A stretch of DNA of 57,852 nucleotides from Alienimonas chondri (GTDB taxonomy: Bacteria > Planctomycetota > Planctomycetia > Planctomycetales > Planctomycetaceae): positions 1 through 57,852 of the forward strand of contig NZ_WTPX01000011.1 in the NCBI RefSeq assembly GCF_013036045.1, written 5' to 3'. Each line of letters begins with the position of its first letter. Within the stretch, counting starts at the first letter, position 1. The notes below the pieces were generated by a model that worked only from the letters and a program-made list of their open reading frames with translations, did not search any database and was not told where the DNA came from. The position numbers were made by a program, and so were the translations under genes. This document shows positions 5 through 16,722 of the stretch, in pieces.

Positions 5-1771
5 ATGCACGCCCCGAGTCCCTCCCCCGCTCCCGCCGCCTACGAACCGTCCCGGGCCGCGTACGCCGATCCCCGCGATCAACCGCAGGCGCTGCGACTC
101 GCCGCGGACGTCTGGCGAGCCGTGCGCGGCCACTGGCGAATCGCGGCTCTGTTCTTCGTGCTGGCGAACGCCGCGGTACTGGGAGGAATCATCCTTTGCC
201 CACGGACGTACGTCTCCGAGGCGAAAGTGAAGGTGAACGCCGGCCGCGAAAGCACCGTCAGCGAAACCGGTCGTTACGCCGAGGGGTCGGCGGTCGCGCT
301 GCAGAACAATCGCGAACAGGATCTGAACACTGCGGTCGACGTGCTCGAAAGTCGGGCCGTGCTGGCGTACGCCGTCAAGCAGATCGGCCCGGAACCGATT
401 CTCAAGGGGTACGTCCCTGCCGAGGGCGAACAGGGCGAGGCTACCGACGGGGCGCTCGATCCTGAGACCGCCCAGCAGGTGGACGGCGGGCCGCTCGCCG
501 CGATCGGCCTTTCCGACCCGGTCAGCCGATTCGAGAAGGCTGTGGAAACGCTCGGGCAGATCCTGGAGGTGAATTCGAACAAGAAATCGGACGTCATCAG
601 CATCTCCGTCGAAGCGGGGAAGCCGGCGTTGGCCCAGCGGATCTGTGCGGAAATTATCTCCGGCTTCCGCGTCAAATACTCCGACGCCAGCGAGATTGAG
701 GGCGGCAGCGAGTTCTTTGCCCAGAAGGCCGACGGAGCCAAGGCCGATTTGGACAAGGCCGCCGGTTTGCTGGCGACGGAGTTGAACGCGTTGGGGATTT
801 CGACGGTCGAAGGTCGCCGCCAACAGCTCCAGGAGGAACTGTCGCGGCTCAGCAGCGAAGAGATGGACCGCCGCAAGGTCCTAGAAGGGACGATCGCCGA
901 GATCGCCGGTTACGACCGGGTGTTGGCGAGCACGCCGGAGGAGATCGACGCCGGCCAGACCGAGAACCAAGCGACCGGCGCCCCGGACACGTTGCGGAAG
1001 GAAATCGCCTCGATGGAGGCCCGCCGCGAAAAGATCGTGCAGGAGACCAGCGCCAAAGCGCCGGGGGCCGTGCGGCTTGAACAGCAGATCGCCGCGAACG
1101 TCGCCCTGCTGAAAACGCTCTCCGACGACAGCAAGCAGACGACCACCAGCGCCAATCCGGTTTGGCAGGATCTGACCAAATCCAAACTGACGGCCCAAGC
1201 CAGGGCCGAGGGATTGCGGGCGGAGCTGTCCGCGATTCGCGACCAACGGCAGGAGGCCGGGCGGGCGATCGCGGAGCTGAACAAACGTGAGAGCCGCATC
1301 CTTGCCTTGCAGACCGAACGCGACGAACTGGCGAAGGGACTGGGGCGGTACGTCGAACTTCGCGAACAGGCGAAGGTCGCGGACGAGATGGGCGCCCAGA
1401 GCATCTCCAGCGTCAAGGTGTTCCAGGAGCCGAGCTTCAACGCCAAGCCGGTCGCACCGAAGAAGCGATTGATCGCGGCGGCGGGCTTGGTGTTCGCCGG
1501 ATTCGGCGCCTTGGGACTCTGTTTGGTGCTGGAATACAAGAGCATCTTCTTTCCGGAAGACCAAGCCGCGGCCCTCGACCGAGACGGCGTCAATGACGGC
1601 CGGACGAACGGCTGGGCCGAACCGGAGACGACCGGCTACCGCCCCGCCGAGACGCCCCTCGAGACCGCCGCGGTCCACCGCAGCGCCGGAAATGGGCACG
1701 CGACCGGCGCCTACGTCGACTCCGGGACGGACGCCGGGGCCGAGCCGACGATCGCCGACCGACCCCGCTGA
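5..1771 (+). CDS. Wzz/GNVR polysaccharide chain-length determinant protein
   Basis: This 588-residue inner-membrane protein is of the Wzz/GNVR (polysaccharide co-polymerase) type, which sets chain length and couples polymerisation to export. A first transmembrane helix lies at about residues 47-65, followed by the Wzz-like AKVKVNAGR segment. A long, probably coiled-coil periplasmic region runs from about 200 to 460. The family's proline-rich turn (KPVAPKKRL) precedes a second helix at about 488-509. The tail (about 520-588) is Pro/Gly/Thr-rich and probably disordered; there is no fused tyrosine-kinase domain. The ATG lies 5 bases from the window edge and no in-frame stop precedes it, so the true start could be upstream. 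It opens the polysaccharide locus. The family call is firm; the polymer is unknown. Confidence 0.85.
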   Translation: MHAPSPSPAPAAYEPSRAAYADPRDQPQALRLAADVWRAVRGHWRIAALFFVLANAAVLGGIILCPRTYVSEAKVKVNAGRESTVSETGRYAEGSAVALQNNREQDLNTAVDVLESRAVLAYAVKQIGPEPILKGYVPAEGEQGEATDGALDPETAQQVDGGPLAAIGLSDPVSRFEKAVETLGQILEVNSNKKSDVISISVEAGKPALAQRICAEIISGFRVKYSDASEIEGGSEFFAQKADGAKADLDKAAGLLATELNALGISTVEGRRQQLQEELSRLSSEEMDRRKVLEGTIAEIAGYDRVLASTPEEIDAGQTENQATGAPDTLRKEIASMEARREKIVQETSAKAPGAVRLEQQIAANVALLKTLSDDSKQTTTSANPVWQDLTKSKLTAQARAEGLRAELSAIRDQRQEAGRAIAELNKRESRILALQTERDELAKGLGRYVELREQAKVADEMGAQSISSVKVFQEPSFNAKPVAPKKRLIAAAGLVFAGFGALGLCLVLEYKSIFFPEDQAAALDRDGVNDGRTNGWAEPETTGYRPAETPLETAAVHRSAGNGHATGAYVDSGTDAGAEPTIADRPR

Positions 1772-1877
1772 GGCCCGGCGTCGCTGAGGTCCTGCGTCGT
1801 AGATCCGCTTCGTTTGCTCGGCAGGGACGCCGATCGTCTCCCCCCCACCTTCCCGCGCTCGCAGCGGATCCGTGCTC

Positions 1878-3095
1878 ATGAGTCTCTCGTCCCTGTTCCG
1901 CCGCTCCTCGGTCCCCGACCACGCGCTGCCCGGTCCCGAAGCGTTCGGCCAGAGCCTGCGGGTCGAACTGATGCGGGCCGACCGCGGTCGCAGTCGGTTC
2001 TGCCTCGCGGTGTTCGACCTCGTGGAGTGGACGTCCGCGAGCGACGAACGGGCGAACAGCTTCGCGGAGTACCTAACCGCTCGGCTGCGGGCGACGGACT
2101 ACGCCGGTTTGCTGGGGGCCGGGCGTTTGGGCGTGATCCTGTGGGACACGGACGAAGCAGGCGCCGCACGGTTCGTCAGCAAGGTGCGGCAGGGATGGGT
2201 CGCTGCCCGCAGCCCCGAAGCGGTCATCTACGCCTATCCCAGCGATCGGCCGATTGGGCAGCCGCCCACGCCGGCCCGCTCCAGCGCCGCTTTGCCGCAG
2301 GGATTCGCCGAAGCGATCACGCCCGGCTCCCCCGGCCCCGCCGCGGGGCAAACCGTGGACGGCCCGGGGAACGCAGTCACGACCGCCCTATCGAGCGCCG
2401 CGGAGCGGGATGCGACGGATGCCCCCTCCGACGACGAAGATCTCGACGAGCCGCCGCCGGTCCCGGTATTGCCGCTCGAGGAGGTGCTGCTTTGTCCGTT
2501 GCCCCGTTGGAAACGAGCGGTGGACGTGGCCGGGGCGGCCGCGGGGCTGGTCGTTCTATCCCCCCTGCTGCTGGCGACCGCGGCGGCGGTGAAGCTGACC
2601 AGTCCCGGACCGGCGCTGTTTCGTCAATGGCGGGACGGATTAGGCGGGCGGAAGTTCAAGATCAATAAGTTCCGCACGATGGTCGCGGACGCGGAGGCTT
2701 TGAAGGACGCGCTGCGGGCGAACAGCGAACAGGACGGCCCGGCGTTCAAGATGGAACACGACCCGCGCATCACGCCGCTCGGTCGGTGGATGCGGAAGAC
2801 CTGCGTGGACGAACTGCCCCAACTGTGGAACGTGCTGATGGGGGATATGTCGCTGGTCGGTCCGCGTCCGCTGGATAGCAAGGAGATGGCGTGCACCGGG
2901 TGGTGGGAACGTCGTCGTTTGCTGGTCACCCCCGGTCTGACCTGCATCTGGCAGGTGGACGGCAAGAGCAAAGTGACCTTCAAGGAGTGGATGCGAATGG
3001 ACATTCGCTACATGCACGACCGGACGTTCGTCGGAGATCTCGGGCTGATTCTGCGGACGGCCCGCAACATCGCCCTGCACCGCGGTTCGCATTGA
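1878..3095 (+). CDS. Initiating sugar-phosphate transferase with N-terminal degenerate GGDEF-like domain
   Basis: The C-terminal half (about residues 205-400 of 405) is a bacterial sugar transferase of the WbaP/PglC class, which moves a sugar phosphate from a nucleotide sugar to undecaprenyl phosphate. Visible signs are the membrane helix near 215-235, KFRTM, the DELPQLWNVL..DMSLVGPRP block and the C-terminal GLTCIWQV segment. Residues about 30-115 resemble a GGDEF domain (FDLVEW, LTARLRATDYAGLL, VILWDTD), but the GGDEF motif reads GAGRL, so cyclase activity is not expected. A Pro-rich linker (about 116-200) joins the parts. The multi-helix N-terminus of WbaP is absent. An ATG at 1878 was chosen over a GTG two codons earlier. 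It lies 106 bases after the Wzz gene and 13 bases before the deacetylase gene. Confidence 0.88.
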   Translation: MSLSSLFRRSSVPDHALPGPEAFGQSLRVELMRADRGRSRFCLAVFDLVEWTSASDERANSFAEYLTARLRATDYAGLLGAGRLGVILWDTDEAGAARFVSKVRQGWVAARSPEAVIYAYPSDRPIGQPPTPARSSAALPQGFAEAITPGSPGPAAGQTVDGPGNAVTTALSSAAERDATDAPSDDEDLDEPPPVPVLPLEEVLLCPLPRWKRAVDVAGAAAGLVVLSPLLLATAAAVKLTSPGPALFRQWRDGLGGRKFKINKFRTMVADAEALKDALRANSEQDGPAFKMEHDPRITPLGRWMRKTCVDELPQLWNVLMGDMSLVGPRPLDSKEMACTGWWERRRLLVTPGLTCIWQVDGKSKVTFKEWMRMDIRYMHDRTFVGDLGLILRTARNIALHRGSH

Positions 3096-3108: not shown

Positions 3109-4227
3109 GTGCCGCCCCTCGACTCGCCGCCGCAAATTGACGACATGCTCTCCGCCGCCCCCCTCGACAATCCGCCGTCGGCCCGAATCGCCGGCGCCGG
3201 CCCGGGCGACGGCGGACCGTCAAACGCCGCCTCGGAAGTTCTCCGAGCGGCCCGGTCCGCCCTGACGGCGCCGGATTCCACGACGCTCCGTTTCCCGACG
3301 GACAACCCTCCCCCGCCCAGAGCGGCGAAGCTGCGGAACTGGCTGACGCCGCGGCTGGCGCTGCCCGCCGGCCCGTTGGCGAATCGCACGCCGGGCACGG
3401 GGGCGTTGATGTACCATCGCTTCGCCGACCCGGTCTCCGGCCTGCCCGAGCCGACCTGGAACGTCCCGCCGGCCCTGCTTCGCACGCAACTGGCCGGGTT
3501 ATTGTCGCGCGGATACCGAGCGGTGCGTTTGGAAGAGGTGCTCGACCGGATCGCGGCGGGGGAACCGGCGGACCCGAAGTCGTTCGTCGTCACGATCGAT
3601 GACGGCTACCTGAACAACCTGACGCAGGGGCTGCCGATCTTCGAGGAACTCCGCGTGCCCGTGACGCTGTTCGTGGCGACCGGATACGTCGGTACGCCCT
3701 GCCCCTACCCCTTTGACGACTGGGCCGGTAAGGGCCATCCACACGCCCCGCGAGAAAGCTGGGCGGCGATGAACAGGGGGGAATTGCGGCGCTTCGCGGA
3801 AAGCGAGTTCGTCTCCCTCGGCGTTCACACGCACACCCATCAGGACTTCCGCGGACGCCCGGACCTATTCGCCGCCGATCTCGCCGAAAGCTGCCGCGTG
3901 TTACGCAGCGGGTTCGGCATCGAGCGCCCCGCGTTCGCCTTTCCGTACGGAACCCGGCAACGCGGGTTCAGCGGGGGCGAACTGAAGGCCGCCGTCGCCC
4001 GCACGCCGGTCAGCTGCGCCCTCACCACCGAGGACGAACGCATCCGGGCGGACTCTGATCGATTCGACCTCGGCCGGTTTACGGCGACGTCGGCGGACAC
4101 CGCCGCCACGCTGGCCGCCAAACTGGATGGGCGATTCGGCGCGCTCAAGCGCGCGCTGCACCGCAACCACCGCTCAACGCCGACAGCTTCGACCGCAGCA
4201 GCCAAGCCGTGCGGAGGGCGTTCGTGA
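3109..4227 (+). CDS. Polysaccharide deacetylase (NodB/CE4 family)
   Basis: This CE4 enzyme of up to 372 residues would remove N- or O-acetyl groups from a polysaccharide. The NodB fold begins near residue 100 (ALMYHRF). The catalytic Asp pair is TIDDGY (Asp164/Asp165), and the metal-binding histidines are in HTHTH (residues 240-244), followed by the AFPYGT block. The first 95 residues are Pro/Ala-rich and low in complexity. Starts are possible at GTG 3109 or ATG 3145; neither has a clear Shine-Dalgarno sequence. Its stop (TGA 4225-4227) overlaps a GTG start of the flippase gene, which suggests translational coupling. No classical signal peptide is visible, so whether it acts in the cytoplasm or outside is open. 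Confidence 0.88.
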   Translation: MPPLDSPPQIDDMLSAAPLDNPPSARIAGAGPGDGGPSNAASEVLRAARSALTAPDSTTLRFPTDNPPPPRAAKLRNWLTPRLALPAGPLANRTPGTGALMYHRFADPVSGLPEPTWNVPPALLRTQLAGLLSRGYRAVRLEEVLDRIAAGEPADPKSFVVTIDDGYLNNLTQGLPIFEELRVPVTLFVATGYVGTPCPYPFDDWAGKGHPHAPRESWAAMNRGELRRFAESEFVSLGVHTHTHQDFRGRPDLFAADLAESCRVLRSGFGIERPAFAFPYGTRQRGFSGGELKAAVARTPVSCALTTEDERIRADSDRFDLGRFTATSADTAATLAAKLDGRFGALKRALHRNHRSTPTASTAAAKPCGGRS

Positions 4228-5717
4228 GCGTTTCGGCCACCGCCACTCCTGCGTCTCCGACGCGACGTCATGAGGCTTCGGAGTCCTCGTCCGTCGAGTC
4301 TCGTCCGACGGCCTCCGCACGGCCGGCGTCGTCCGACCCGACCTGCGCGGGCGATCTGGCCGACGGAGGCGACTCGCCCAATGCCCCGGTCGACTGCGCC
4401 GCTGCGCCGCCGACGGCGGAGCGGGAGGACTGGCTGGTCGGCTTCTGCGCCCGGTTCGTCGGAAGGGAACGCAGCCGCGCGGCGTTGTCGATCGGCGATC
4501 AGGCGATCGTGAGCGCCACGAACTTCGTCACCTCGGTCCTCATCGGTCGTGCCGCGGGGAAAGAGGCGCTGGGCGTTTATCTGCTGGGCATCACGCTGAT
4601 CCTTTTCGTTCGCGGGGTGCAGGAGCAGATCGTCTACGGGCCGTACCTCGTCTTCTGTCATAAACGCAAAGGGACGCGGCTGGCTCGGTACGCCGGCAGC
4701 GTGTTGGCGCATGAAGGGCTCTGGCTGCTGGCGACGGCGCTGGGGCTGCTGGGGCTGGCGGTGTATCTCAATCTCGGCGGCGAACCGGCCGGATTGCGGG
4801 CTTCGAGCTGGGCCCTGATCCCCGCGGTGCCGTTGATCCTGTTTCGAGAGTTCGCCCGGCATATCGCGTTTGGTCATTTCCGCAGCGGGACCGCGGTACT
4901 GCTGGACGTGGCGGTCGCGGTCTTTCAGATCGCGGGCTTGGGTGCGCTGTTTCTCGCCGGCACGTTGGACGTGCCCAGCGCGTTCGGCGTGATGGGCGCC
5001 GCTTGCTTGCTGGTCTGCGGGCCGTGGTGCCTGCGGTTTATGAAGGGCGTGCGATTCCGGGCGAAGGCGATCGGCAGCGACTGGCGCCGCAACTGGAAGT
5101 TCGGCCGTTGGGCGCTGGCCACCCATCTGCTGCACGGCGCCAGTCACTATCTGATGCCGTGGGTCGTGGCGCTGGTCGACGGCGAAGCGGCGACGGGCAT
5201 CTTCGCGGCGGGGTCCACGATGGTCGGGATCGCCAACATGTTCGTGCTCGGGCTCGCCCACTACATCTGCCCGAAAGCCGCAGAGCGGTTTCATGCCGAC
5301 GGCGTGCCCGGCCTCACCCGGGTGTTACGGATGGCGACGCTGGTCTTCTCCGCCGTGCTGGCTCCCTTCGCGGCGGTCTGCTGGGTCTTCGGGGATGACC
5401 TGTCCACGCTCATCTTCACGGACGCCTTCTCCGGCGCCGGGATGGTGCTGACCGTGTTGGCGATCAACATGTGGGCGAACGCCCTCTCGATCACCTGCGG
5501 CAACGGTCTGTGGGCCGTCGAGCGGCCGGACGCCAACTTCTCCGCGGACGTATTGAGCCTGGTGGTCGTCGGCGTGTGCACCGCGGCATTGATCGGGGCG
5601 TACGGGGTGGTCGGCGCCGCGATCGCGATGGCGATCGGCGGCTGGGTCGACGTCATCGCCCGCTACGTCGCCCTGCGAGGCGTGCTGAAGAACATCGAGG
5701 CCGGGGCGAAGTCTTGA
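4224..5717 (+). CDS. Wzx-type lipid-linked oligosaccharide flippase
   Basis: This is a polytopic membrane protein of 497 residues with about 12-14 hydrophobic segments after a disordered N-terminus of about 75 residues. It is of the polysaccharide transport (MOP/MATE-like) type that flips undecaprenyl-linked repeat units across the inner membrane. Supporting signs are RAALSIGDQAIVSATNFVTS at the start of the membrane region, typical of Wzx-like proteins, and its place between an initiating transferase and ligase-type genes. The GTG at 4224 gives a 4-base GTGA overlap with the deacetylase stop and was preferred to the GTG at 4209. Substrate cannot be inferred. Confidence 0.78.
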   Translation: MSVSATATPASPTRRHEASESSSVESRPTASARPASSDPTCAGDLADGGDSPNAPVDCAAAPPTAEREDWLVGFCARFVGRERSRAALSIGDQAIVSATNFVTSVLIGRAAGKEALGVYLLGITLILFVRGVQEQIVYGPYLVFCHKRKGTRLARYAGSVLAHEGLWLLATALGLLGLAVYLNLGGEPAGLRASSWALIPAVPLILFREFARHIAFGHFRSGTAVLLDVAVAVFQIAGLGALFLAGTLDVPSAFGVMGAACLLVCGPWCLRFMKGVRFRAKAIGSDWRRNWKFGRWALATHLLHGASHYLMPWVVALVDGEAATGIFAAGSTMVGIANMFVLGLAHYICPKAAERFHADGVPGLTRVLRMATLVFSAVLAPFAAVCWVFGDDLSTLIFTDAFSGAGMVLTVLAINMWANALSITCGNGLWAVERPDANFSADVLSLVVVGVCTAALIGAYGVVGAAIAMAIGGWVDVIARYVALRGVLKNIEAGAKS

Positions 5718-7117
5718 CCAATCCCGTTGCGCCTCGCCCTGCCTCCCCGGGGCCGGCCAAGGATCCCGCGGTGGTCTGGGGGCGGCTGCTCATCCTGCTG
5801 GCGGCGGTCACGCTCGCTTTGGCCTTTGCGGGGGCGAATCACCTCTATGGAACCTCGCTACGGGACGACTACTCGCTCGACGAGGAGGAGCTCGCCCGGG
5901 GAACGGCGGGCGGCGACACGCTTCGCCGGGCGGGATTCTTGCTGCTGGCCGGGTGCGGAACGCTGGGGGCGCTGTTCGGCAAAGCCGGGCGCTGGCGAGC
6001 GCCGCTGCTCTCGCCGACCGGCGGCGGGCTGACGGGCGTGGCCTTGATCGCGATGTTCGCCTGGTGGGCCGCGAGCATCTCCTGGAGCGACGACCCGCCG
6101 CTGACGGCCCGACGAATCGTCGTCGTCGGCCTGTTTCTGCTGGGGGCCGGGGGATTGGCGAAGGCGCTGACCGGCCGTCAGTTGGTGATCGCCGCAGTGG
6201 GGGCGGTGTCCCTGCACCTGTTCGCCGGGATTGCGGTCGAAGCCGCGCTCGGCACGTTCGTACCCTGGCGGGCGGACTACCGATTTAGCGGCACGATTCA
6301 CCCGAATATTCAAGCATTGCAACTGGCGACGGGCCTCTGCGGCTGCGTAACGCTGTCGGGGATATTCCGCACGGAGCGGCGGCTCGACGCACGCGTGAAT
6401 GTGTGGTGGTTGCTGTGGGGCGCCGTCCTGCTGGGCTTCCTGGTGCTGACGAAGAGCCGCACCGCGACGGCGGGAGCGGCGCTGGCGGTGTCGGCGACGG
6501 GACTGACCGCGGCGAGTCCGGCGACGAAACTGCTGAGCCTCGCGGGGGGCGTGGCGGGGGCGACGGGCGTGCTGGTGGCGATTCTGTTGGCGGGCGTGGA
6601 CCCGACGGAAGACGTCCGCGACGCCGCCTTGATGGGCCGAACCGAGCAGCACAGCAGCCTCTCCGGGCGACTGCCGATTTGGGAGGCGATCATCCCGTAC
6701 ATCGCGGAGAAACCGTGGCTGGGGCATGGCTACGGCGCCTTCTGGAGCCGTCAACGGGTCGACGCCATCAGCGACGACGTCGGCTGGCCGTTGTCCGCCA
6801 GTCACTCCGGCTGGATCGAGTCCGCCGCGGAGATCGGTCTGATCGGCGCCAGCCTGATGGCGGCGTTGCTGCTTTGCGGCACGTTCCGAGCGGCGGCGGC
6901 GATCCGCGATCCCGTGCGACCAGGCGATCCGCTGCCGGCGTTCGCCTTGGCCCTCACGCTGTTGATGATCGCCAACGCCTTTACCGAAGCGCTCATTCAC
7001 GACGTGCGCCTCGTCCCCTGCCTGCTCTGGGCGAGCCTCGCGAAACTCACCGTTCTGTCTGACCTGCCGAGGGCGTCCCGGGCAGTCGCGGCCAGCCCCG
7101 ACAGGAGCCTGCGATGA
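5714..7117 (+). CDS. O-antigen ligase/polymerase family membrane protein, paralog 1 of 4
   Basis: This 467-residue protein has about 10-12 predicted membrane helices and is of the Wzy_C/WaaL type. Such enzymes polymerise lipid-linked repeat units or transfer a glycan to an acceptor on the periplasmic side. It carries the block shared with the next three genes: GTFVPWRADYRF..GTIHPN (about residues 179-198), LTKSRT, then MGRTEQ..SLSGR..IWE. His364 in SASHSGW is in the position of the family's conserved His. The start is taken as TTG 5714, overlapping the flippase stop as TTGA; GTG 5771 is an alternative. It ends in an ATGA overlap with paralog 2. Whether it polymerises or ligates cannot be told from sequence. 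Confidence 0.82.
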   Translation: MTNPVAPRPASPGPAKDPAVVWGRLLILLAAVTLALAFAGANHLYGTSLRDDYSLDEEELARGTAGGDTLRRAGFLLLAGCGTLGALFGKAGRWRAPLLSPTGGGLTGVALIAMFAWWAASISWSDDPPLTARRIVVVGLFLLGAGGLAKALTGRQLVIAAVGAVSLHLFAGIAVEAALGTFVPWRADYRFSGTIHPNIQALQLATGLCGCVTLSGIFRTERRLDARVNVWWLLWGAVLLGFLVLTKSRTATAGAALAVSATGLTAASPATKLLSLAGGVAGATGVLVAILLAGVDPTEDVRDAALMGRTEQHSSLSGRLPIWEAIIPYIAEKPWLGHGYGAFWSRQRVDAISDDVGWPLSASHSGWIESAAEIGLIGASLMAALLLCGTFRAAAAIRDPVRPGDPLPAFALALTLLMIANAFTEALIHDVRLVPCLLWASLAKLTVLSDLPRASRAVAASPDRSLR

Positions 7118-8451
7118 ATCTCTGGACGAGCGGCTGGAAGAGCGGACCCGGCACGACGATCGCGGTCGCGATCCTGATCGCGGCGATCTACTACGGCATC
7201 GAGCACCTGCCGGACGCCTCCACGCGCCCCGACTACGCCCCCGATGCGGAGACGATGGGGGCCGCGTTCGAACAGGTGGACGTGCGTCGGCGATTGGGGG
7301 TGCTTGCGCTGGCGGCGCTCGGCGCCGCCGGCCTCTGGTTCGGGCGGGCCGAGGCTCGCTGGAACGGCGGACTCGTCGGGACGGCTCTGGCGGCGTTCAC
7401 CGTGCTGCCGTTCTTCAGCGTACTCTGGAGCGACGCCCCCGGGGTGACGATCCGACGTTCGGTCGTGTTTGGACTGTCTCTGTGGGCCGCCGCGGGGCTG
7501 TGCCGATTGCTGTCCGGCAGGCAGCTTGTTTGGGCGGCGTTGGTCGCGGTTTGCGTGCAGTTCGGCGTCGGCCTGCTGACGGAGTTGTTCCTCGGCACGT
7601 TTCGTCCGTGGGAGAGCGATTATCGGTTTGCCGGGACGATTCACCCCAATATGCAAGCGTTGCAGCTGGGGGTGGGCGTGGTGGCCAGCGCCGTTCTGTT
7701 GCTCCGGCCGGGCCGACGCGGCGGGCGCTGGTCCGATTTCCGGGGGCCGTTGCTGTGCGCCGTCGCCGCGGCCCTGCTGCTGTTTTGTCTGCTCACCAAG
7801 AGTCGCACCAGCGTCGGCGGAGTGATCGCGGCGGTCGCGGCGGTCGCGGTGTTTCTCTCTTCGGGGCCGACGAAGAACCTGTTGGCGATCGGCGGCGTGG
7901 GTCTGGCCGGCGCCGTCATCGTCGTGCTGTTGCTGACCGGATTGGATCCGACCGACGACATCCGGGACGCGGCGATGATGGGCCGCAGCGAAGACGCGGG
8001 CTCGCTGTCCGGCCGGGTCCAGATCTGGGACGCCTTGGACCCCTACGTCGCGGATCGACCGCTGCTGGGGTACGGCTATCTGACGTTCTGGTCGGAGCGA
8101 CGACTGTACGCGCTGCACTCGGAGGTGGGTTTCAAGTTCGCCGGGGCGCACTCCGCCTGGTACGAAACGGCGCTGGGGCTGGGGATTCCGGGAGCGATCC
8201 TGCTGGCGACTATTTTGCTGGGGGGAATGTCGCGGGCGGCTTCGGCGGAATTGGCCGAACAACGTGTCGGGGGAACCGGGGGCTCGCCGCTGCCGGCGTT
8301 TCTGTTTGGCGTCCTGGCGCTGGCGGCGCTGAACTCGCTGTTGGAAGCGATCATCGCCGACGTGCGGCTCACCACCCTCGTGATGTATTGCGGACTCGGA
8401 AAAGCGACGTTCTTCCCGGATGCTCGATCGGAGGGGCGACGTGCAGACTGA
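7114..8451 (+). CDS. O-antigen ligase/polymerase family membrane protein, paralog 2 of 4
   Basis: This 445-residue polytopic membrane protein starts at ATG 7114, within an ATGA overlap, with AGGAG a few bases upstream. It shares with its neighbours GTFRPWESDYRF..GTIHPN, LTKSRTS, MGRSED..SLSGR..IWD and the candidate catalytic His346 in GAHSAWYE. Around the GTIHPNMQALQL segment the DNA is almost the same as in paralog 3, so these two are probably the most recent duplicates. The N-terminal HLPDASTRPDYAPDAETM segment also recurs in paralog 3. Role as in the family: periplasmic glycan polymerisation or ligation. Confidence 0.82.
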   Translation: MNLWTSGWKSGPGTTIAVAILIAAIYYGIEHLPDASTRPDYAPDAETMGAAFEQVDVRRRLGVLALAALGAAGLWFGRAEARWNGGLVGTALAAFTVLPFFSVLWSDAPGVTIRRSVVFGLSLWAAAGLCRLLSGRQLVWAALVAVCVQFGVGLLTELFLGTFRPWESDYRFAGTIHPNMQALQLGVGVVASAVLLLRPGRRGGRWSDFRGPLLCAVAAALLLFCLLTKSRTSVGGVIAAVAAVAVFLSSGPTKNLLAIGGVGLAGAVIVVLLLTGLDPTDDIRDAAMMGRSEDAGSLSGRVQIWDALDPYVADRPLLGYGYLTFWSERRLYALHSEVGFKFAGAHSAWYETALGLGIPGAILLATILLGGMSRAASAELAEQRVGGTGGSPLPAFLFGVLALAALNSLLEAIIADVRLTTLVMYCGLGKATFFPDARSEGRRAD

Positions 8452-9877
8452 TCCCCCTGCCCCGGCGCCATCGTCGTCCCCCGTCGTCTCGTCGTCCTCC
8501 GCCGTGCGGACGCCGTGGCAGCGACTGTCGAACGTCTCGCCGCTGTGGGTCGCGGCGTTGCTGACGGCGGCGGCGTTCTTCGGCATGGAACACTTCCCCG
8601 CCGCCAGCACCACCGACGACTACGCCCCCTCGCAAGAAAGTATGGAGGGAGCGAATACCACCGCCGACCCGGGGCGGCGGGTCGCTCTGTTGGCGATGCT
8701 CGCGCTGACCGTCTACGGCCTTTGCTGGGGCCGGGCCGCGTCGTTCGGGCCCGGGGGACTGGCCGGGTGGACGCCGGTGGTCTGGATGGCCTGGCTGTCG
8801 CTGAGCATGTTCTGGAGTTCCGACCCGCGCACGACCGTTCGCCGACTCATCGTGCTCGCCCTGTTTCACGGGGCCGCGTTGGCGGTTTGCCGGTTGCTGA
8901 AGGCTCGACAGGTGGTGACGTTCGCGGCTTTGTGCGTTGCCTTGCAGCTGGCCGTCGGGATTCTCGCCGAACTTCTCTACGGGACGTTCCGTCCCTGGGC
9001 GGGCGACTATCGGTTTGCCGGCACGATTCACCCCAATATGCAGGCGTTGCAGCTCTCCGCGGCGTGCGTGGCGTCGGCGTCCCTCGCAACGTACGGAGCC
9101 ACCTGGGGTCGGCGAACGCGATGGGCGGCTCTCGCGGCGATCCTGACCGCCTTCCTGCTGCTGACGAAGAGCCGCACCGCGACCGGCGGCGCCGCCTTGG
9201 CGGTCGCCGGCGTGCTGTTGCTGTCCGTTCCGCCGCGGTGGAAACGCAACCTGCTGATCCCCGTCGTGCTGGTCTCAAGCCTGGCGGCGATGGCGCTGCT
9301 GTTCGGCGGGTTCGATCCCAGCGACGAACTCCACGACGCCGCGATGATGGGACGCAACGAGCAGGCGACGAGCCTGTCGGGCCGCGTGCCGATCTGGGAA
9401 GCGCTCGACCCCTACGTCCGCGAGCGATGGTGGACCGGTTGGGGCTACAACGCCTTTTGGTCGAAGCAGCACATCGACGCCCTGACGGACGCCGTGGACT
9501 TCAAGTTCAGCGGCGCCCATTCCTCCTGGTACGAAGCGGCGCTGGACGGCGGGATCGTGGGCGCCACGTTGTTTGCGATGACGCTGGCCTTCGGCCTGCT
9601 CCGCAGCGGTCGAGAGTTCCTCGCCCAACGCCGCGCCCTGCCCGCGTTCGTGTTCGGCATTCTCATCTGCGGCTGCGTGAACAGCGTCTTGGAGCACCTC
9701 GTCTGCGATACGCGGCTGTTCCCGTTCCTGATGTATTGCGGACTTTGGAAGCTGACGTTCCTTCGAGATGCGCCGGGCGTCGACGACGTGCCGACCGCCG
9801 AGCCGGTGAATCCGGCTCCGGTGAATCCGGCTCCGGTGAATCCGGCTTCGGCGGACCCCGGCGGGGCGCGGCTGTAG
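8420..9877 (+). CDS. O-antigen ligase/polymerase family membrane protein, paralog 3 of 4
   Basis: This protein has 485 residues from ATG 8420, which overlaps the previous gene by 32 bases. GTG 8441, also in frame, would reduce the overlap to 11 bases. It has about 10-12 membrane helices and the shared blocks GTFRPWAGDYRF..GTIHPN, LTKSRTA, MGRNEQ..SLSGR..IWE and GAHSSWYE (His367). The C-terminus after the last helix is an odd low-complexity tail with PVNPA repeated three times, encoded by three exact copies of a 15-base unit. The 131 bases to paralog 4 show no clear promoter or terminator. Confidence 0.82.
   Translation: MLDRRGDVQTDPPAPAPSSSPVVSSSSAVRTPWQRLSNVSPLWVAALLTAAAFFGMEHFPAASTTDDYAPSQESMEGANTTADPGRRVALLAMLALTVYGLCWGRAASFGPGGLAGWTPVVWMAWLSLSMFWSSDPRTTVRRLIVLALFHGAALAVCRLLKARQVVTFAALCVALQLAVGILAELLYGTFRPWAGDYRFAGTIHPNMQALQLSAACVASASLATYGATWGRRTRWAALAAILTAFLLLTKSRTATGGAALAVAGVLLLSVPPRWKRNLLIPVVLVSSLAAMALLFGGFDPSDELHDAAMMGRNEQATSLSGRVPIWEALDPYVRERWWTGWGYNAFWSKQHIDALTDAVDFKFSGAHSSWYEAALDGGIVGATLFAMTLAFGLLRSGREFLAQRRALPAFVFGILICGCVNSVLEHLVCDTRLFPFLMYCGLWKLTFLRDAPGVDDVPTAEPVNPAPVNPAPVNPASADPGGARL
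9803..9847 (+). repeat. Three exact tandem copies of a 15-base unit
   Basis: The unit ccggtgaatccggct occurs at 9803-9817, 9818-9832 and 9833-9847 with no mismatch. It is in frame inside the 3' end of the third ligase paralog and encodes a PVNPA-type tail beyond the membrane domain. It is a short slippage-prone tract. Confidence 0.95.
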
Positions 9878-10008
9878 CGAACGGCAGAGGAAAGACCGTC
9901 GCAATCGGTTCGCCTCGGGAGATTCCCGCGTCCCGCAGTTCCGGGGCGACGCACGGTTGACCGGCGACGCTCCGTCGCTGGTCCGTCGGTCCCCGAGTTC
10001 GTTCCCGC

Positions 10009-11676
10009 ATGAGCGCCGCCCCGTCCCGCTCCGCAGTCGGCTCCGCCGCAGCGTTCGACCGGGCGTCTGTCCATCGAAAAGCGACCGAGGCGTTGTGGCG
10101 CGGCCGCCTGCCCGGCGGAAAACGGCTGTTCCTCGCGGCGGCCTTCCTGGTGGGGATGCCGTTCTACCTCGCGGGGCAGTCTTGGAGCACCAGCGCCGCC
10201 GAGGCGTTCACGGAGTCCGCCGACGAGATGGAAGCCCGGGCCTCCGGCGGCAATGCGCTGCGACAGGTCGCGTTCCTGACCCTGGGCGGGTGCGGCGTGT
10301 GGTGTCTGGCGCAGGACCGCCGACGGCAGGCTCGCCCGCTGCCGACGTGGTGGTCGCCCTATTGGCCCGGCGGGAAAACGGCGAGTTTGTTGTGCGAGTG
10401 GGCCGGCGTCGCCCGTCGTTCGCATCCCGTCGCGTGGGTCTTGGCGATGTACCTCGCCTGGTGCTTCGCGAGCGTGCTGTGGAGTCACGAACCGGGGCAA
10501 ACGATCCGCAAGCTGATCGTTCTGGGGTGCTGGACCGCGGGGAGTCTCGGCGTCGCCCGCGTGCTTTCGCCCCGACGGATCGTGTGGCTGGGCGTGCTGT
10601 TGCCCGCGATTTATCTCTCGATCGGCGTCATGGCGGAAATTTCGCTCGGCACGTTTCGACCGTGGGGCGGCGACTACCGCTTCGCCGGAACGATGCACCC
10701 GAACACGCAGGGCCTCACGCTGGCCAGCATGATCGCCGGGGCGTTCGTCCTCTGGCGCTCCGAACGTCGGTTTGCACGAGTGAGCGAATCCACTGACGAA
10801 CCGCAGTCGGCGTCCTTCGGCCTCTGGCTGCCGGCGCTGATCGCCGCCGGCGTACTGTTCACCCTGCTCACCAAGAGTCGGACCAGCGCCGCGGGGCTGG
10901 CGCTCTGTCTGGGACTGCTGGCCGCGATCACGGTCCCGCCGCGATGGCGGCTGGCGGCGACGGTGGCCGGCGGAACGGTCGGGGGGGCGGCGTTGATGAC
11001 GGCGCTCTCGCTCGGCTCGGATCCATTGGGCGGAGCGATGGACGCGGCGACGCTGGGCCGGTCGGAGCAGCTCTCCTCTCTCACCGGACGCCACGAAATC
11101 TGGGCGGAGATCGGTCGGTTTATGGAGCGGCGACCGCTCGCCGGCTACGGCTACGACAGTTTTTGGACCCCGGAACACGTCGCGATCGTCAGCGAGAACT
11201 GCGGCTGGGGGCTGCGCGAAGCGCATAGTTCCTATCGCGACATCCTGCTGAGCGTGGGGAAGGTCGGTTTGGCCCTGCTCGTGCCGGCGCTGCTGTGGGC
11301 CTGGTTCGCCGCGATCCAGCGGTATGCCGCGGGCGAGCGGGCCGCGGAGGGACGTCCCGGCGTTCCGCCTTCGGGGGTCGGCGAACCGCTGGCCGGTTAC
11401 ATCGCGGGCCTGCTGGCCGTGGGGTTGCTCAACGCCTTCACCGAGTCTGCCATGAGCATGGTGCTGTTCACCCCGTTCCTGATCAGCTGCGGCTTGGCCA
11501 AGCTGTTCGTCTATCCGCAGGAAACCGTCTCGCCGTTTGGCGCCGATTGGCTCGACGCTCCCGCCCCGCACGTCACAGGGTCCGAAATCCAGTCATACGG
11601 GCCGTCCGACGGGCCGGAATCGAATGTCCGGTCGCAACAGAGCGCTGGGCGGACAGAGTCGAACATTGCCCGCTGA
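10009..11676 (+). CDS. O-antigen ligase/polymerase family membrane protein, paralog 4 of 4
   Basis: This is the longest (555 residues) and most divergent of the four paralogs. It starts at ATG 10009 without a visible Shine-Dalgarno sequence. Shared blocks are GTFRPWGGDYRF..GTMHPN, LTKSRTS and LGRSEQ..SLTGR..IWA; the candidate His406 lies in REAHSSYRD, lacking the Trp found in the other three. It has extra residues in the first third and a hydrophilic C-terminal extension of about 45 residues (from about 510). About 12 membrane helices are expected. The different His context and length suggest a separate substrate or acceptor from paralogs 1-3; this is inference. Confidence 0.8.
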   Translation: MSAAPSRSAVGSAAAFDRASVHRKATEALWRGRLPGGKRLFLAAAFLVGMPFYLAGQSWSTSAAEAFTESADEMEARASGGNALRQVAFLTLGGCGVWCLAQDRRRQARPLPTWWSPYWPGGKTASLLCEWAGVARRSHPVAWVLAMYLAWCFASVLWSHEPGQTIRKLIVLGCWTAGSLGVARVLSPRRIVWLGVLLPAIYLSIGVMAEISLGTFRPWGGDYRFAGTMHPNTQGLTLASMIAGAFVLWRSERRFARVSESTDEPQSASFGLWLPALIAAGVLFTLLTKSRTSAAGLALCLGLLAAITVPPRWRLAATVAGGTVGGAALMTALSLGSDPLGGAMDAATLGRSEQLSSLTGRHEIWAEIGRFMERRPLAGYGYDSFWTPEHVAIVSENCGWGLREAHSSYRDILLSVGKVGLALLVPALLWAWFAAIQRYAAGERAAEGRPGVPPSGVGEPLAGYIAGLLAVGLLNAFTESAMSMVLFTPFLISCGLAKLFVYPQETVSPFGADWLDAPAPHVTGSEIQSYGPSDGPESNVRSQQSAGRTESNIAR

Positions 11677-11755
11677 GATCTCCCCCTCGCCCCGGGCTTC
11701 GGTCTACGCTGAGAGAGACGGAGCATCGCGGATCTCTCCCCCTTCGCTTGATGTC

Positions 11756-12802
11756 ATGATTGCTGTGCGTTCGTCCGCAAGTCCCGCCGACCCCTCGCAG
11801 GCCTGCTGGCGGGTCGGGGACGAGGCGCGGGACGGCCGAAAGGAATCCTCGGAGCCGACGGATCTCCCGCCGACGCTGCCGTCGGTGACCGTCGTCGTCT
11901 GCACCCGCAATCGCGCCGACAGTTTGCGGCGGGCGCTGCAGAGCTTGACCAAGTTGGACCACGCCGGCCTGCGGGTCGATCTGCTCGTCGTGGACAACGG
12001 CAGCACGGACCACACGGCGGCGGTGGTTGAAGAGGTCGCCGCGTCGTCTCCGATTCCCGTCGCACGGGTGTACGAACCCACCCCGGGCGTGGCGACGGCT
12101 CGGCAGCGCGGCGTGCTCGAAAGCCGCGGCGACTGGATCGCCAGCTTCGACGACGATCAACTCGCCGAACCGGACTGGCTATGCAAGCTGTTCGCATTGG
12201 CGCAGCAGAAGGATGTGAAGTTCGTCGGCGGCCGAGTTCGGTTGCATCTCCCGCCGGCATTCGAGAATCGCGACCTCGCCCCGTTCACCCGCATGTTGCT
12301 CGGCGCCAGCGTCGGGATGCCCGCCGTTCGCCGCTACGATCTCAAGACGACGCCCGGCGCCGGCAACATGATGGCTCATCGGGAGGTGTTTGAACGGGTC
12401 GGCCCGTTCGACCCGACGCTGGACCGCGGCGAAGACACGGACTTCTACGTGCGGGCCGCCGATGCCGGATTTCAGGTCTGGTACACGCCGGAGGCTGTCG
12501 TCCATCACTGCATTCCGGCGGATCGGATGAACGACGCCTATCTCTACCGACTGTGCGACATCATCGGAAACGGCACCGCGGAACGAGACTTCGAGCGACT
12601 CGGCCGCGTCAAGCTGGCGGCGATGTGGCTGGCGCGATTGGGCCAGTCGTTCCTGACGCTGACGCCGCCCTGGCTGTGGGCCAAGGTGCGTGGAGACGTG
12701 GAGCTTGAGCGCGGGCGTCGCTGCCGATTGCGGGTCGCTCGCCGCTATCTGGCCGATTGCGGTCGGTACGTCGTCGGCTTGCCGGTCACCGTGCCTCGCT
12801 GA
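11756..12802 (+). CDS. GT2-family glycosyltransferase
   Basis: This 348-residue GT-A fold enzyme has VTVVVCTRNRADSL near residue 45, VVDNGSTD, the metal-binding FDDDQ (DxD type), GAGNMMAHR and the acceptor/base region DRGEDTDF. The C-terminal part has one or two amphipathic or weak membrane segments near FLTLTPPWLW. It would add a sugar to the lipid-linked repeat unit on the cytoplasmic side. The reading frame is open upstream to 11537, but that part overlaps the ligase gene and looks non-coding; ATG 11756 puts the GT fold at the normal distance from the N-terminus. Sugar specificity is not readable. Confidence 0.85.
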   Translation: MIAVRSSASPADPSQACWRVGDEARDGRKESSEPTDLPPTLPSVTVVVCTRNRADSLRRALQSLTKLDHAGLRVDLLVVDNGSTDHTAAVVEEVAASSPIPVARVYEPTPGVATARQRGVLESRGDWIASFDDDQLAEPDWLCKLFALAQQKDVKFVGGRVRLHLPPAFENRDLAPFTRMLLGASVGMPAVRRYDLKTTPGAGNMMAHREVFERVGPFDPTLDRGEDTDFYVRAADAGFQVWYTPEAVVHHCIPADRMNDAYLYRLCDIIGNGTAERDFERLGRVKLAAMWLARLGQSFLTLTPPWLWAKVRGDVELERGRRCRLRVARRYLADCGRYVVGLPVTVPR

Positions 12803-12948: not shown

Positions 12949-14118
12949 GTGATCGACGTCGCCCACGCCAAAGGCTCCGCCCCGAGCAGCGTCGCGTCAT
13001 CAGGCGTTTCTTCGTCGATGATGGGTCCGATCGTGATCCGCCGGCCGAGCGAATTGTCGGCCGCCGAGCGAACCGCTTGGGAGCGCTTCATGGATGCGAT
13101 GCCCACGCCCACGCCGTATCTGTCGCCGGAGTTCGCCGACCTCGTCGAACGGCATCGGGGCGGCGTGTTCGTCGCCCTGCTCCACGGGGACGGCGCTGTG
13201 CCGGGGACGGACCCGCCTCTCGGCTTCTTCCCCTACCAGACAGACGGCGGCGGGGTCGGCCGGCCGGTGGGCGGCGGGCTGAACGATTTCCACGGACTGC
13301 TCGCCCCGGCGGAGTTGCCGATCGACCTGCGGACGCTGCTGGCCGCGTGCGAACTGCGGGTGTGGAAGTTCGATCACCTCCTCCCGCACCCCGCCTTCGC
13401 TCCGTTCGTGGAGCGTCGCGACCCCAGCGCCTACCTCGATCTCTCAGAAGGCTACGAGGCGTATTATCAGGGCCGCCGGGCCGCGGGTTCGCGGAAGGTC
13501 AAACAGGTCGCCCGCATGGATCGCAAGTTCGACCGAGAGGACGGTCCCCTCACCTTCGAGCCGCACGTTCCGAACGTGGACCTCCTCGATCAATTGATCG
13601 AATGGAAACGGGCGCAGTACGCCGCGGCGGGGCTCTTCGACATGTTCACGCTCGGATGGCCGCGGGAACTGCTGGTCGACCTGCTGACCATGCGTTCGCC
13701 GCGACTGACCGGGCGGTTCTCCGTCCTGTTCCGCAACGGAGAGATGGTCGCCGGAGATCTCGGCATGCGCTGCGGAGCCGTGCTGCACAGTTGGTATTGC
13801 GCCTACGACACGGCTTACTCCTCGCATGGTCCGGGGCACATCTGCACGTTGCGAGCCGCGGAGGCGGCTGCGGCGGACGGCATTACGCGCGTCGAACTCG
13901 GCAAGGGGCCGGAGGATTACAAACGCAGTTTCGCCAGCGACGCCCGTGAGGTGGCCGAAGGCTCCGTGGACTTCCGAGCCGTCGCCCCGCTGGCTCGCAC
14001 ATGTCGACAGGCCTTCCGCGGAGCGAAAGCGACCGCCGCAAACAGCCCCGCCGCGGAGCCGCTCCGCCGCCTCGTGCGTCGCGTCAAAGTCCTCACCGCG
14101 GGCGCCCGACCCTTCTGA
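12949..14118 (+). CDS. CelD/FemAB-like GNAT acyltransferase, paralog 1 of 2
   Basis: This protein has 389 residues from GTG 12949, or 366 from ATG 13018, which may be the true start because the preceding 23 residues are low complexity. It resembles the CelD/BcsL and FemAB-like acyltransferases (GNAT fold, Acetyltransf_6 type), which acylate or add amino-acid groups to polysaccharide or lipid-linked sugars. Markers are PYLSPEFADLV, DFHGLL, a basic GSRKVKQVARMDRKF segment, WKRAQYAAAG, AGDLGMRCGAVLHSWYCAYD and VELGKGPEDYKRSF near the end. It is followed 45 bases later by a clear paralog. The 146 bases upstream hold nothing I can name. Confidence 0.75.
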   Translation: MIDVAHAKGSAPSSVASSGVSSSMMGPIVIRRPSELSAAERTAWERFMDAMPTPTPYLSPEFADLVERHRGGVFVALLHGDGAVPGTDPPLGFFPYQTDGGGVGRPVGGGLNDFHGLLAPAELPIDLRTLLAACELRVWKFDHLLPHPAFAPFVERRDPSAYLDLSEGYEAYYQGRRAAGSRKVKQVARMDRKFDREDGPLTFEPHVPNVDLLDQLIEWKRAQYAAAGLFDMFTLGWPRELLVDLLTMRSPRLTGRFSVLFRNGEMVAGDLGMRCGAVLHSWYCAYDTAYSSHGPGHICTLRAAEAAAADGITRVELGKGPEDYKRSFASDAREVAEGSVDFRAVAPLARTCRQAFRGAKATAANSPAAEPLRRLVRRVKVLTAGARPF

Positions 14119-14163
14119 ACGTCGGATTGCTCTCCTCCTCGATCGCCCGCCACGCGCCACGTC

Positions 14164-15369
14164 ATGCCCTTCCCCTCCCGTCCGCCGCAAATCGACCCGG
14201 CCGGCGCCGCCCCGGCGCGGGTCGTGCGGCCGTCGGCGTTGTCGGACGAGGAGATCGCGGCTTGGGAGACGCTGCACCGGTCCCGGCCGGAGTTGGCGAG
14301 CCCCTACTTCCACCCGACGTTTACGCGACTCGTCGCGGAGGCTCGGGCCGCACATGCTCGCGACGACGTTCGCGTCGCCCTGTTGCCCTCCCATGAAAGC
14401 GCTTCGGGCGGTACGGGCACGGCCTTCTTCCCCTTTCAACGCGGTCGGTGGGGGCGTGCGACGCCCCCGGGCGGGCGGCTGTGCGACTTTCACGGCGTCG
14501 TCGCTCCGGATTCGTTCCGTCGGAACGCGATCGACGTCCTGCGTGGCAGCGGCTTGCGATCGTATGCGTTTCACATGCTGCCCCCCGGCCAGCGGACGTT
14601 CGCTCAGGCGACCAGGACTCGCGGCGATGCGAGCCCTGGGACCGGCGTCCGTGTGAACCTGGAAGGCGGATTCGACGCGTTCCTGCGTCGCCGTGAAGCC
14701 CTTGGGTCGAAGCGCCACAAGAAGGTATTTCAGTTCCACCGCCGGATGCGGCGCGAACGCAGCGAAGTGACCTTCACCTGGCACGACCCTGATCCGCAGG
14801 CGTGGGAACGGCTGCTCGCCTGGAAGCGGGCGCAATATGCCGCGACCGGATTCTGCGACGTGCTGGCGGCCCCGTGGGTCAGCGACCTGCTGGCTCGCTG
14901 CCGCGACGCTCGGCCGGCGGACGAATCGACCGCCAAGAAAAGCCGCGAGCGGGGCGCCGAAGGATTCCGCGGGGTGTTCTGCACGCTGCGGGCGGGCGGC
15001 GAGGTGGTCGCCGCGCACCTGGCGCTTCGCAGCGGCCCGCGACTGCACGCCTGGTTCCCCGCCTACGACCCGTCCGCTCGGTCCCTGAGCCCGGGAAACG
15101 TTCTGATGATGGAACTGCTGCGTCACGCCGCGGATCGCGGGGTGACGGCGGTGGACCTCGGCCGGGACGACGAGGCGTACAAGGCGGACTACGCCACCGA
15201 TCATTTTCCGCTTCTCAGCGGTCTCGCCGAGACGCCGGGGCGGGCGACGCAGGTCGCCGCCGCGGCCCGTCGGGTTCGCGACCTGCTCAAGTCCCATCCC
15301 GCCGGCGCCCCGGCCCGCGCCGCCGCGGCGTGGGTCCGGCCGCTGCGCGAACGCTTGTCTCTGCGGTGA
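14164..15369 (+). CDS. CelD/FemAB-like GNAT acyltransferase, paralog 2 of 2
   Basis: This 401-residue paralog starts at ATG 14164 and is collinear with the upstream gene. It shares PYFHPTFTRLV, LCDFHGVV, KRHKKVFQFHRRMRRE, WKRAQYAATG, AAHLALRSGPRLHAWFPAYD and VDLGRDDEAYKADY. It is longer in the centre, where a charged insert (STAKKSRERGAEG) replaces a short loop. As in its neighbour, the last Tyr/Lys-containing block is the usual end of this fold. Two such enzymes suggest two different acyl decorations, or modification of two positions on the polymer; that is inference. Confidence 0.75.
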   Translation: MPFPSRPPQIDPAGAAPARVVRPSALSDEEIAAWETLHRSRPELASPYFHPTFTRLVAEARAAHARDDVRVALLPSHESASGGTGTAFFPFQRGRWGRATPPGGRLCDFHGVVAPDSFRRNAIDVLRGSGLRSYAFHMLPPGQRTFAQATRTRGDASPGTGVRVNLEGGFDAFLRRREALGSKRHKKVFQFHRRMRRERSEVTFTWHDPDPQAWERLLAWKRAQYAATGFCDVLAAPWVSDLLARCRDARPADESTAKKSRERGAEGFRGVFCTLRAGGEVVAAHLALRSGPRLHAWFPAYDPSARSLSPGNVLMMELLRHAADRGVTAVDLGRDDEAYKADYATDHFPLLSGLAETPGRATQVAAAARRVRDLLKSHPAGAPARAAAAWVRPLRERLSLR

Positions 15370-15429: not shown

Positions 15430-16722
15430 ATGTTCGATTTGCCGCTTCGTATCCTGGCGCTGGGAGTCCTGTTGCTTTGGCTTGCGCCGGCGGCGGTGTT
15501 CGCGGTTCAGGTGTTCGCCTCGCTCCTCCCGGCCCGCAAACTGCCGGCGGTCTCCGGCGACGATCGGCCGGGCGGCGTGGCGCTCATGCCGGCCCACAAT
15601 GAAGGCGCTCCGCTGGCGGAGATCGTCGCCGCCCTGCTGCCGGAACTGAGCGAGCAAGATCGGCTGGTGGTGATCGCGGACAACTGCACGGACGACACCG
15701 CCGCCGCCGCGGTCCGTGGGGCCACGAAACAAGGCGGAATCGTCGACTCGCGGTTCGCCCTCCTCGAGCGAACCGACCCGGACCGCCGCGGCAAAGGCTA
15801 TGCACTGGACTACGCCCTCGATTGGCTCGCCGAGCAGAGCGAGGACGGTCGAATGCCGGAGTCCGTCTTCGTACTCGACGCGGACTGTCGCGTTTCGTTC
15901 GGCGGCGTGGACCGATTGATGGCGACCTGCGCCGCGACCGGTCGCCCGGTTCAGGCCCGCACGCTGAGCGTCGTGGACGATCGCACCGACGCCGACGCCG
16001 CCGGGCTGATGGCGGTTTCGGAGTTAGGGATGCTATTCAAAAACTACATCCGCCCCCGCGGCTCGGCGCGGCTCGGCATCCCGTGTCAATTAATGGGCAC
16101 GGGCATGGCGCTGCCCGGATCGTTTCTGGATCGGAAACGGTCCGAAGCGAAGTCCCGCGGCGGCGGGGTGTTCGGCGGTGAACTCGCGGAGGACATGCAG
16201 ATGGGCGTGGACGCCGCGATTTCCGGCCGGCCGGCCCGGTTCCTAGCCGAGGTGCGGGTCACCAGTCCCCTGCCCACAAGCTTGCGGGGCTTCGACGGTC
16301 AGCGGACGCGTTGGGAACAGGGGCATTTGCAGACGCTGATGCGCGGGGTGCCCCTCCTGCTCCGTCAGGGCGTCATCAAGGACGACCTGCGTGCCATCGG
16401 GTTGGCGGCGGACTTGGCCGTGCCGCCGTTCAGCATGCTGGTCGCCGGCTGGTTCGCAGTCGCCGCCGTCTTGGCGTTCGTGGCCTGGTGGACCGGCTTC
16501 ATCGCCGCCCTCGTCGTGCACGGGGTCGCGGGAGCGATGGTCGCGGCGGCGGTCGTCATCGGATGGGCGACGTTCGGGCGGGACCGGGTGTCGGCCGCGG
16601 CGCTGCTGTCCGTACCGAAGTTCGTCTTTCGCAAACTGCCGATCTACAGCCGTTTCCTCACGAATCGGGTCGAGACCGAATGGGTCCGCACCGAACGCGC
16701 CGCCGAAAGCGCCCCGCGATGA
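15430..16722 (+). CDS. Membrane-bound GT2 glycosyltransferase (cellulose/hyaluronan-synthase-like)
   Basis: This 430-residue protein has an N-terminal helix (about 5-28), a cytoplasmic GT2 domain and two or three helices after residue 330. The GT2 motifs are MPAHNEG near 55, VIADNCTDDT, VLDADCRV (DxD type), GELAEDMQM (the acid that acts as base) and QRTRWEQGHLQ (Q-x-x-R-W signature). The number of helices is lower than in a true synthase with a full translocation channel, so a repeat-unit glycosyltransferase is more likely than a processive synthase. It ends in an ATGA overlap with the WecG-like gene. Confidence 0.83.
   Translation: MFDLPLRILALGVLLLWLAPAAVFAVQVFASLLPARKLPAVSGDDRPGGVALMPAHNEGAPLAEIVAALLPELSEQDRLVVIADNCTDDTAAAAVRGATKQGGIVDSRFALLERTDPDRRGKGYALDYALDWLAEQSEDGRMPESVFVLDADCRVSFGGVDRLMATCAATGRPVQARTLSVVDDRTDADAAGLMAVSELGMLFKNYIRPRGSARLGIPCQLMGTGMALPGSFLDRKRSEAKSRGGGVFGGELAEDMQMGVDAAISGRPARFLAEVRVTSPLPTSLRGFDGQRTRWEQGHLQTLMRGVPLLLRQGVIKDDLRAIGLAADLAVPPFSMLVAGWFAVAAVLAFVAWWTGFIAALVVHGVAGAMVAAAVVIGWATFGRDRVSAAALLSVPKFVFRKLPIYSRFLTNRVETEWVRTERAAESAPR

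Follow-up and report, generated by a model that had tools for sequence, protein, structure and literature searches.

Four tandem Wzy_C genes in an exopolysaccharide gene cluster of Alienimonas chondri: a possible old expansion of one polymerase

Four adjacent Wzy_C genes

We analyzed a stretch of 57,852 nucleotides of the planctomycete Alienimonas chondri (assembly GCF_013036045.1, contig NZ_WTPX01000011.1, positions 1 to 57,852; hereafter, the window), in which four adjacent genes, P1 to P4, encode membrane proteins of the O-antigen ligase/polymerase type within an exopolysaccharide gene cluster. All four reading frames are intact, and all four products pass the Wzy_C (PF04932) cut-off of 31.7 bits, with scores of 64.8 (P1), 66.8 (P2), 66.7 (P3), and 55 (P4). 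The genes are tightly packed: P2 overlaps P1 by 4 nt, P3 (counted from its first ATG) shares 32 nt with P2, and a gap of 131 nt separates P3 from P4. Protein identity between pairs ranges from 34 to 48%, highest for P2 and P3, and a crude hydropathy screen counted 6–9 segments per protein. Three more Wzy_C genes of this genome sit on other contigs.

The array had been proposed from the DNA alone (hereafter, the original prediction), as four neighboring genes with shared motifs in the same order. This was confirmed for GTF-PW-DYRF-GT-HPN, LTKSRT, and [AS]HS, which occur at collinear places in all four proteins. The spacing given for another motif, GR-E--SL-GR--IW, matched none of the four, and the alignment reads GR-E---SL-GR--IW instead. 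The paralogy of the genes and their membership of the Wzy/WaaL superfamily, also proposed then, are supported by the alignment, by PF04932, by the tree, and by the profile and fold matches to WaaL described below. The array is real and unusual, and is built from known enzyme families.

Fold and catalytic residues

Structure models of P2 and P4 (predicted local distance difference test, pLDDT, 88.7 and 81.4, respectively) were compared with solved structures. For both, the best match in the Protein Data Bank (PDB) was the O-antigen ligase WaaL (GT121; PDB 7tpg), which they resemble in fold over most of the chain (P2: Z 22.1, root mean square deviation 4.4, 380 aligned; P4: Z 21.2, root mean square deviation 4.8, 378 aligned); the next structures were FtsW/RodA, at Z of 15.2 or less. 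A profile of 28 relatives retrieved WaaL 7tpg at E 4.9e-14 as its sole solved-structure match at E up to 1. WaaL differs from P1–P4 in sequence (14–16% identity) and in that the latter are four copies inside an exopolysaccharide cluster.

In the profile alignment, R191, R265, and H313 of WaaL, whose roles are described in the available text of PMC10920833, are in register with two Arg and one His in each of P1–P4, and these three residues are invariant across a 34-row alignment that includes the window's four rows. P1–P4 are thereby predicted to be polytopic, WaaL-like (GT-C1 type) enzymes, by modeled fold for P2 and P4 and by residues for all four. According to the same partial text, the inverting polymerase families of clan GT-C1 (GT125–GT129), except GT127, have Asp or Glu where WaaL has His; P1–P4 and all 34 aligned rows have His.

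We also compared P1–P4 with two motifs given for type-B Wzy proteins in the available part of PMC12502699. For GN1, RX(11-24)GXG, the second conserved Arg of P1–P4 has GXG at the right distance, and the bare pattern is found in 45/45 rows, being loose enough to match other places in the chain too. For GN2, HNX9GX(2-4)G, P1–P4 have HS in place of HN; the strict pattern occurs in 18/45 rows, and in 44/45 when either HN or HS is allowed.

Other assignments were rejected. A PglL-type protein O-glycosylation ligase was sought with the PglL_A profile PF15864 (see PMC3643930, seen in part), which had no match in P1–P4 at E up to 0.1. The exosortase-associated O-glycosylation ligase profile TIGR03097 reached at most 31.1 bits (P3) against a cut-off of 188.1 and had no match in P2. 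An unrelated transporter family, which the original prediction had named as an outcome that would count against it, was discarded because the profile and fold matches are to WaaL and then to SEDS proteins; P1–P4 fit Wzy_C/WaaL.

Relatives and their loci

The subfamily was searched in 170 genomes of the family with a four-row profile (E up to 1e-15, at most the best nine matches per genome) and in samples of the class (397 genomes) and the phylum (392 genomes) with a 28-row profile (E up to 1e-25, at most the best four matches per genome); the two samples share genomes. It is carried by 13/170 family genomes, 39/397 class-sample genomes, and 6/392 phylum-sample genomes. In the class sample, the genome of the window has four matches, five genomes (G001, G258, G294, G378, and G096) have two, and 33 have one. 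Among those with two, G001, G258, and G294 carry tandem pairs, the copies of G378 are on different contigs, and the matches of G096 are overlapping fragments at contig ends (131/138 residues identical). Four copies is the largest number among the genomes sampled here, counting at most the best four matches per genome in the class and phylum samples. The same tandem array, which the original prediction suggested seeking in other planctomycete genomes, was thus encountered in these samples as pairs and not as four genes.

The loci of 39 relatives were laid out (L022, L029, L031, L032, L036–L038, and L042 were left out of the count). One Wzy gene is present in 37 and a tandem pair in two, against four genes in the window. 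A flippase lies directly upstream in 31, a co-polymerase is found in 34, and a phosphoglycosyl transferase in 27; L008 and L043 were scored as lacking the upstream flippase, though a flippase-like frame overlaps an over-long Wzy frame there. In L025, a single-copy locus with no flippase recognized, the Wzy_C protein is the only strongly polytopic frame of at least 250 aa. Eighteen further matches, on short stretches outside this count, have one gene each. The predicted polymerases of Myxococcus xanthus are likewise PF04932 proteins, acting in a pathway that also has a phosphoglycosyl transferase, a flippase, and a co-polymerase (PMC7484181, available text). The two tandem pairs (L039 and L040, of genomes G258 and G294) belong to another family of the class, and their place in the tree suggests that they were duplicated independently of the genes in the window, so duplication appears to recur in this Wzy subfamily.

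A crude hydropathy count was used to look for polytopic proteins in ten loci of other genera, with the sister locus L022 kept apart. Seven of these showed nothing prominent beyond the Wzy_C protein and, in some, the flippase; the extra polytopic frame of the other three was glycosyltransferase b in two and a PMT_2 protein in one. By this count, the single-copy Wzy_C gene looks like the sole polymerase candidate of its cluster in these ten loci, and we therefore think that the family is more likely to comprise polymerases than ligases.

Evolutionary history of the array

A genome of the same genus has the cluster in unchanged order, and of the four genes it holds orthologs of just P1 (76%) and P4 (79%), separated by a short gap. 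A 45-row tree, from which L042 (a duplicate of L014) and the partial genes of L018, L029, L030, L032, and L035 were omitted, joined P1 with its ortholog (support 100/100) and P2 with P3 (100/98), the latter branch lying outside the P1 ortholog pair, and placed these four together (100/100). P4 and its ortholog were joined (100/100), and the pair grouped with single-copy genes of three other genera (93/89). A 63-row quick tree with long branches, which includes the full-length genes matched in the class sample and the phylum sample, also recovered P2 with P3 (Shimodaira–Hasegawa-like approximate likelihood ratio test, SH-aLRT, 98) and all four in one clade (100); none of its other rows lies closer to P2 or P3 than these do to each other and to P1. 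As for whether the four genes scatter among distant families, which the original prediction had taken as a point that would refute it, P1–P3 fall in one clade and P4 stands beside single-copy genes of other genera.

A duplication giving rise to P1–P3 after the species split was rejected, as a P1–P3 clade without the sister's P1 failed the approximately unbiased topology test (p-AU 0.0004). The synonymous difference (pS) of P2 and P3 is 0.547, compared with 0.341–0.544 for 13 genes orthologous between the two species, these values being near saturation. The recent duplication of P2 and P3 that was originally suggested is unsupported, because their pS is at least at the level of the orthologs, because of their position outside the P1 pair, and because of the rejected topology. 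The simplest account would be that the P2/P3 lineage predates the split of the two species and was then lost in the sister. The ratio of nonsynonymous to synonymous divergence (dN/dS) is 0.23 for P1 and 0.19 for P4, against 0.13–0.42 for the 13 genes; purifying selection acts on P1 and P4 about as it does on the rest of the cluster.

Near-identical DNA around the HPN segment of P2 and P3 had been read as a sign of recent duplication or gene conversion. The best 17-codon window of this pair in the HPN segment is identical at 47 of 51 nt, a value reached in 37/1000 codon-usage simulations (six pairs were compared, with no correction for this); in the remaining five, the observed value was reached in 170 to 880 of 1000. 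The longest exact run between P2 and P3 is 20 nt, which 382/2000 simulations also reached. The similarity is there, but it is only mildly above the expectation from codon usage and the longest run is unremarkable, so that local homogenization between P2 and P3 by gene conversion is a weak hint at most. Over the whole comparison, 114/204 codons are identical, as reached in 12/2000 simulations, perhaps because of common ancestry. Despite a GC content at third codon positions (GC3) of about 0.85, four codons that end in A/T or are TTG (TTT, ATT, AAT, and TTG) are common to the HPN segments of P1 (6269–6328), P2 (7612–7671), and P3 (8999–9058); P4 has none of these codons at the corresponding places.

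Residues beside the catalytic His

At the third residue beyond the catalytic His (His+3), P1–P3 and the ortholog of P1 carry Trp. Across 59 other rows, this position is Tyr in 47, Phe in nine, Val in one (L068), and Trp in one (L071), with one row unmatched. P1–P3 also lack the majority Glu two residues before the His, and P4 retains the EAHS-Y of the majority. Eleven positions of the 34-row alignment at which at least 60% of the 28 out-of-genus rows agree are changed in all four members of the P1–P3 clade, and 7/11 are kept in P4 and its ortholog. The original prediction was right that the sequence near the His sets P4 apart from the others, but the residues of the family majority are those of P4, and P1–P3 are the ones that depart from them.

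That Trp at His+3 is confined to the P1–P3 clade held in 45 rows and was withdrawn when L071, among 18 further rows, proved to have it too; the residue alone does not mark the clade. L071 (genome G565) is a far relative (102.9 bits) from another family of the phylum with the sequence HSSW, its Trp being either convergent or that of a long-branch lineage.

The surrounding cluster

The genome (5.3 Mb) is in 355 contigs, and the window starts at a contig end. The exopolysaccharide gene cluster occupies its first 17.6 kb, with every gene on the + strand (Table 1). The phosphoglycosyl transferase of a Wzx/Wzy locus is present, PF02397 being over its curated cut-off; the flippase (PF01943, 21.1 against 28.2) and the co-polymerase (PF13807, 24 against 27.7) score below theirs and have collinear homologs in relatives.

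Table 1 Genes of the exopolysaccharide cluster, in gene order.
Feature	Position	Strand	Remark
Chain-length determinant / polysaccharide co-polymerase-like protein	5..1771	+	Below family cut-offs
Phosphoglycosyl transferase (Bac_transf PF02397)	1872..3095	+	Would start the repeat unit; PF02397 194.7 bits, cut-off 27
Polysaccharide deacetylase	3109..4227	+	
Wzx-like flippase	4209..5717	+	Below Pfam cut-off; homologs just before the Wzy gene in 31/39 relatives' loci
P1, Wzy_C protein, 467 aa	5714..7117	+	TTG start, overlaps flippase stop; derived clade; ortholog in same-genus genome
P2, Wzy_C protein, 445 aa	7114..8451	+	Derived clade; no ortholog found in same-genus genome
P3, Wzy_C protein, 485 aa from first ATG	8420..9877	+	Sister of P2; no ortholog found in same-genus genome
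P4, Wzy_C protein, 555 aa	10009..11676	+	Groups with single-copy genes of other genera; majority EAHS-Y at His
Family 2 glycosyltransferase	11537..12802	+	Frame; true start probably downstream of 11676
Acetyltransf_6 (GNAT/FemAB-like) protein a	12949..14118	+	
Acetyltransf_6 (GNAT/FemAB-like) protein b	14164..15369	+	
Family 2 glycosyltransferase b	15430..16722	+	
WecG/TagA glycosyltransferase	16311..17624	+	Frame; true start probably near 16720

A scan of 5400–13200 found no sigma-70-like promoter and 12 terminator-like sites, compared with 5.4 expected from shuffles, all within reading frames of the cluster. The copy number of Acetyltransf_6 genes varies too, with two in the window (12949–15369), three each in L027, L045, and L048, and none recognized in 22/39 loci. 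Downstream of the cluster, a frame at 19262–21793 has two stretches matching 3-keto-disaccharide hydrolase (PF06439) and a partial DUF1583_N match.

Possible roles of the four proteins

In our reading, the array arose by the expansion, long ago and in this lineage, of a single exopolysaccharide polymerase rather than by recent duplication, with P4 in the ancestral role and P1–P3 altered in linkage or acceptor, an explanation that, taken whole, has in our view about an even chance of being right. The transferases of the cluster would make undecaprenyl-pyrophosphate-linked units, which the Wzx-like protein would flip. Outside the inner membrane, P1–P4 would bind the undecaprenyl-pyrophosphate glycan with the two Arg, and the His would activate the acceptor. 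From context and tree position, P4 would be the conserved copy and most likely still polymerizes the repeat unit. P1–P3, with their changed pocket, probably differ in linkage or acceptor, most likely linking units, unchanged or modified, at a different position or terminating chains on a different acceptor. The outcome would be a mixed-linkage or differently capped polymer.

Several polymerases acting on one repeat unit in a cell and setting its linkage, as proposed here for P1–P4, are described in the available texts on prophage-borne Wzy of Acinetobacter baumannii (PMC13228068 and PMC9241936), where extra Wzy polymerases alter the linkage between units and one strain makes two linkages. Those extra genes lie in prophages outside the capsule locus, whereas P1–P4 are tandem paralogs inside the cluster. 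The matches listed in a literature search for tandem or multiple wzy genes included the prophage cases of Acinetobacter but no array of paralogs in tandem, and of the papers listed for planctomycete exopolysaccharide Wzy gene clusters none, by its listing or available text, concerned such an array. That four GT-C1 enzymes, all derived from one polymerase and active at the same time, write several inter-unit linkages or attachment points is an idea we offer tentatively, and hold to be doubtful.

Several points weigh against an old polymerase expansion with changed specificities. The product and the enzyme activity of P1–P4 are predicted only. Support for placing P4 with other genera is moderate (93/89), and the topology test does not reject a common origin for the six copies of the genus (p 0.39). 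Orthologs of P2 and P3 are not at hand, so that the selection estimates cover P1 and P4 only, and Trp at His+3 is shared by L071. Finally, an active-site His rather than Asp/Glu is the ligase pattern in the available text of PMC10920833, and for this reason the proteins could still be ligases.

A division of labor, in which one copy (probably P4) polymerizes and P1–P3 are ligases to acceptors such as lipid A-core or proteins, would draw on that same His in all four, on WaaL as the closest solved structure, and on P1–P3 being a derived clade with altered residues by the His. We think it unlikely: PF15864 was not detected and TIGR03097 stayed far below its cut-off, the three other Wzy_C genes of the genome could be the ligases, and the single-copy relatives look, by context, like the polymerase of their cluster. 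Equally unlikely, in our estimate, is that the copies have gained no new specificity and are redundant, serve dosage, or form the subunits of one hetero-oligomer. The separate tandem pair in another family would agree with this, as would the overlapping or nearly touching P1–P4, which may be co-transcribed; but identities of 34–48% with catalytic residues kept, together with clade-wide changes by the His, exceed what redundancy would lead one to expect, and the same-genus genome manages without P2 and P3.

The absence of P2 and P3 from that genome, where the gap between P1 and P4 is short, could instead mean that they were acquired horizontally from an unsampled relative, and not through duplication within the genus followed by loss from the sister. 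This we regard as very improbable, given that P2 and P3 share a clade with the P1 pair (100/100 in the 45-row tree, SH-aLRT 100 in the 63-row quick tree) and have the same GC3 as their neighbors (0.84–0.86). The negative searches point the same way, with no relatives of P2 in a plasmid search and none of P1–P4 in a search of viral contigs.

With three of the four genes in an altered side branch, the organism may have more than one way of joining or attaching its coat. If all four enzymes do act at the same time, as tentatively suggested above, they would make up a multi-polymerase system that is chromosomal and vertically inherited, and the changes next to the catalytic His would mark where specificity has switched. 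The choice of acceptor and linkage by Wzy enzymes is poorly known because these enzymes are so divergent. Four collinear paralogs in one cluster, a close relative with two, and clade-wide changes next to the His would offer a natural experiment on polymerase specificity, one that also bears on whether polymerase and ligase activities interconvert.

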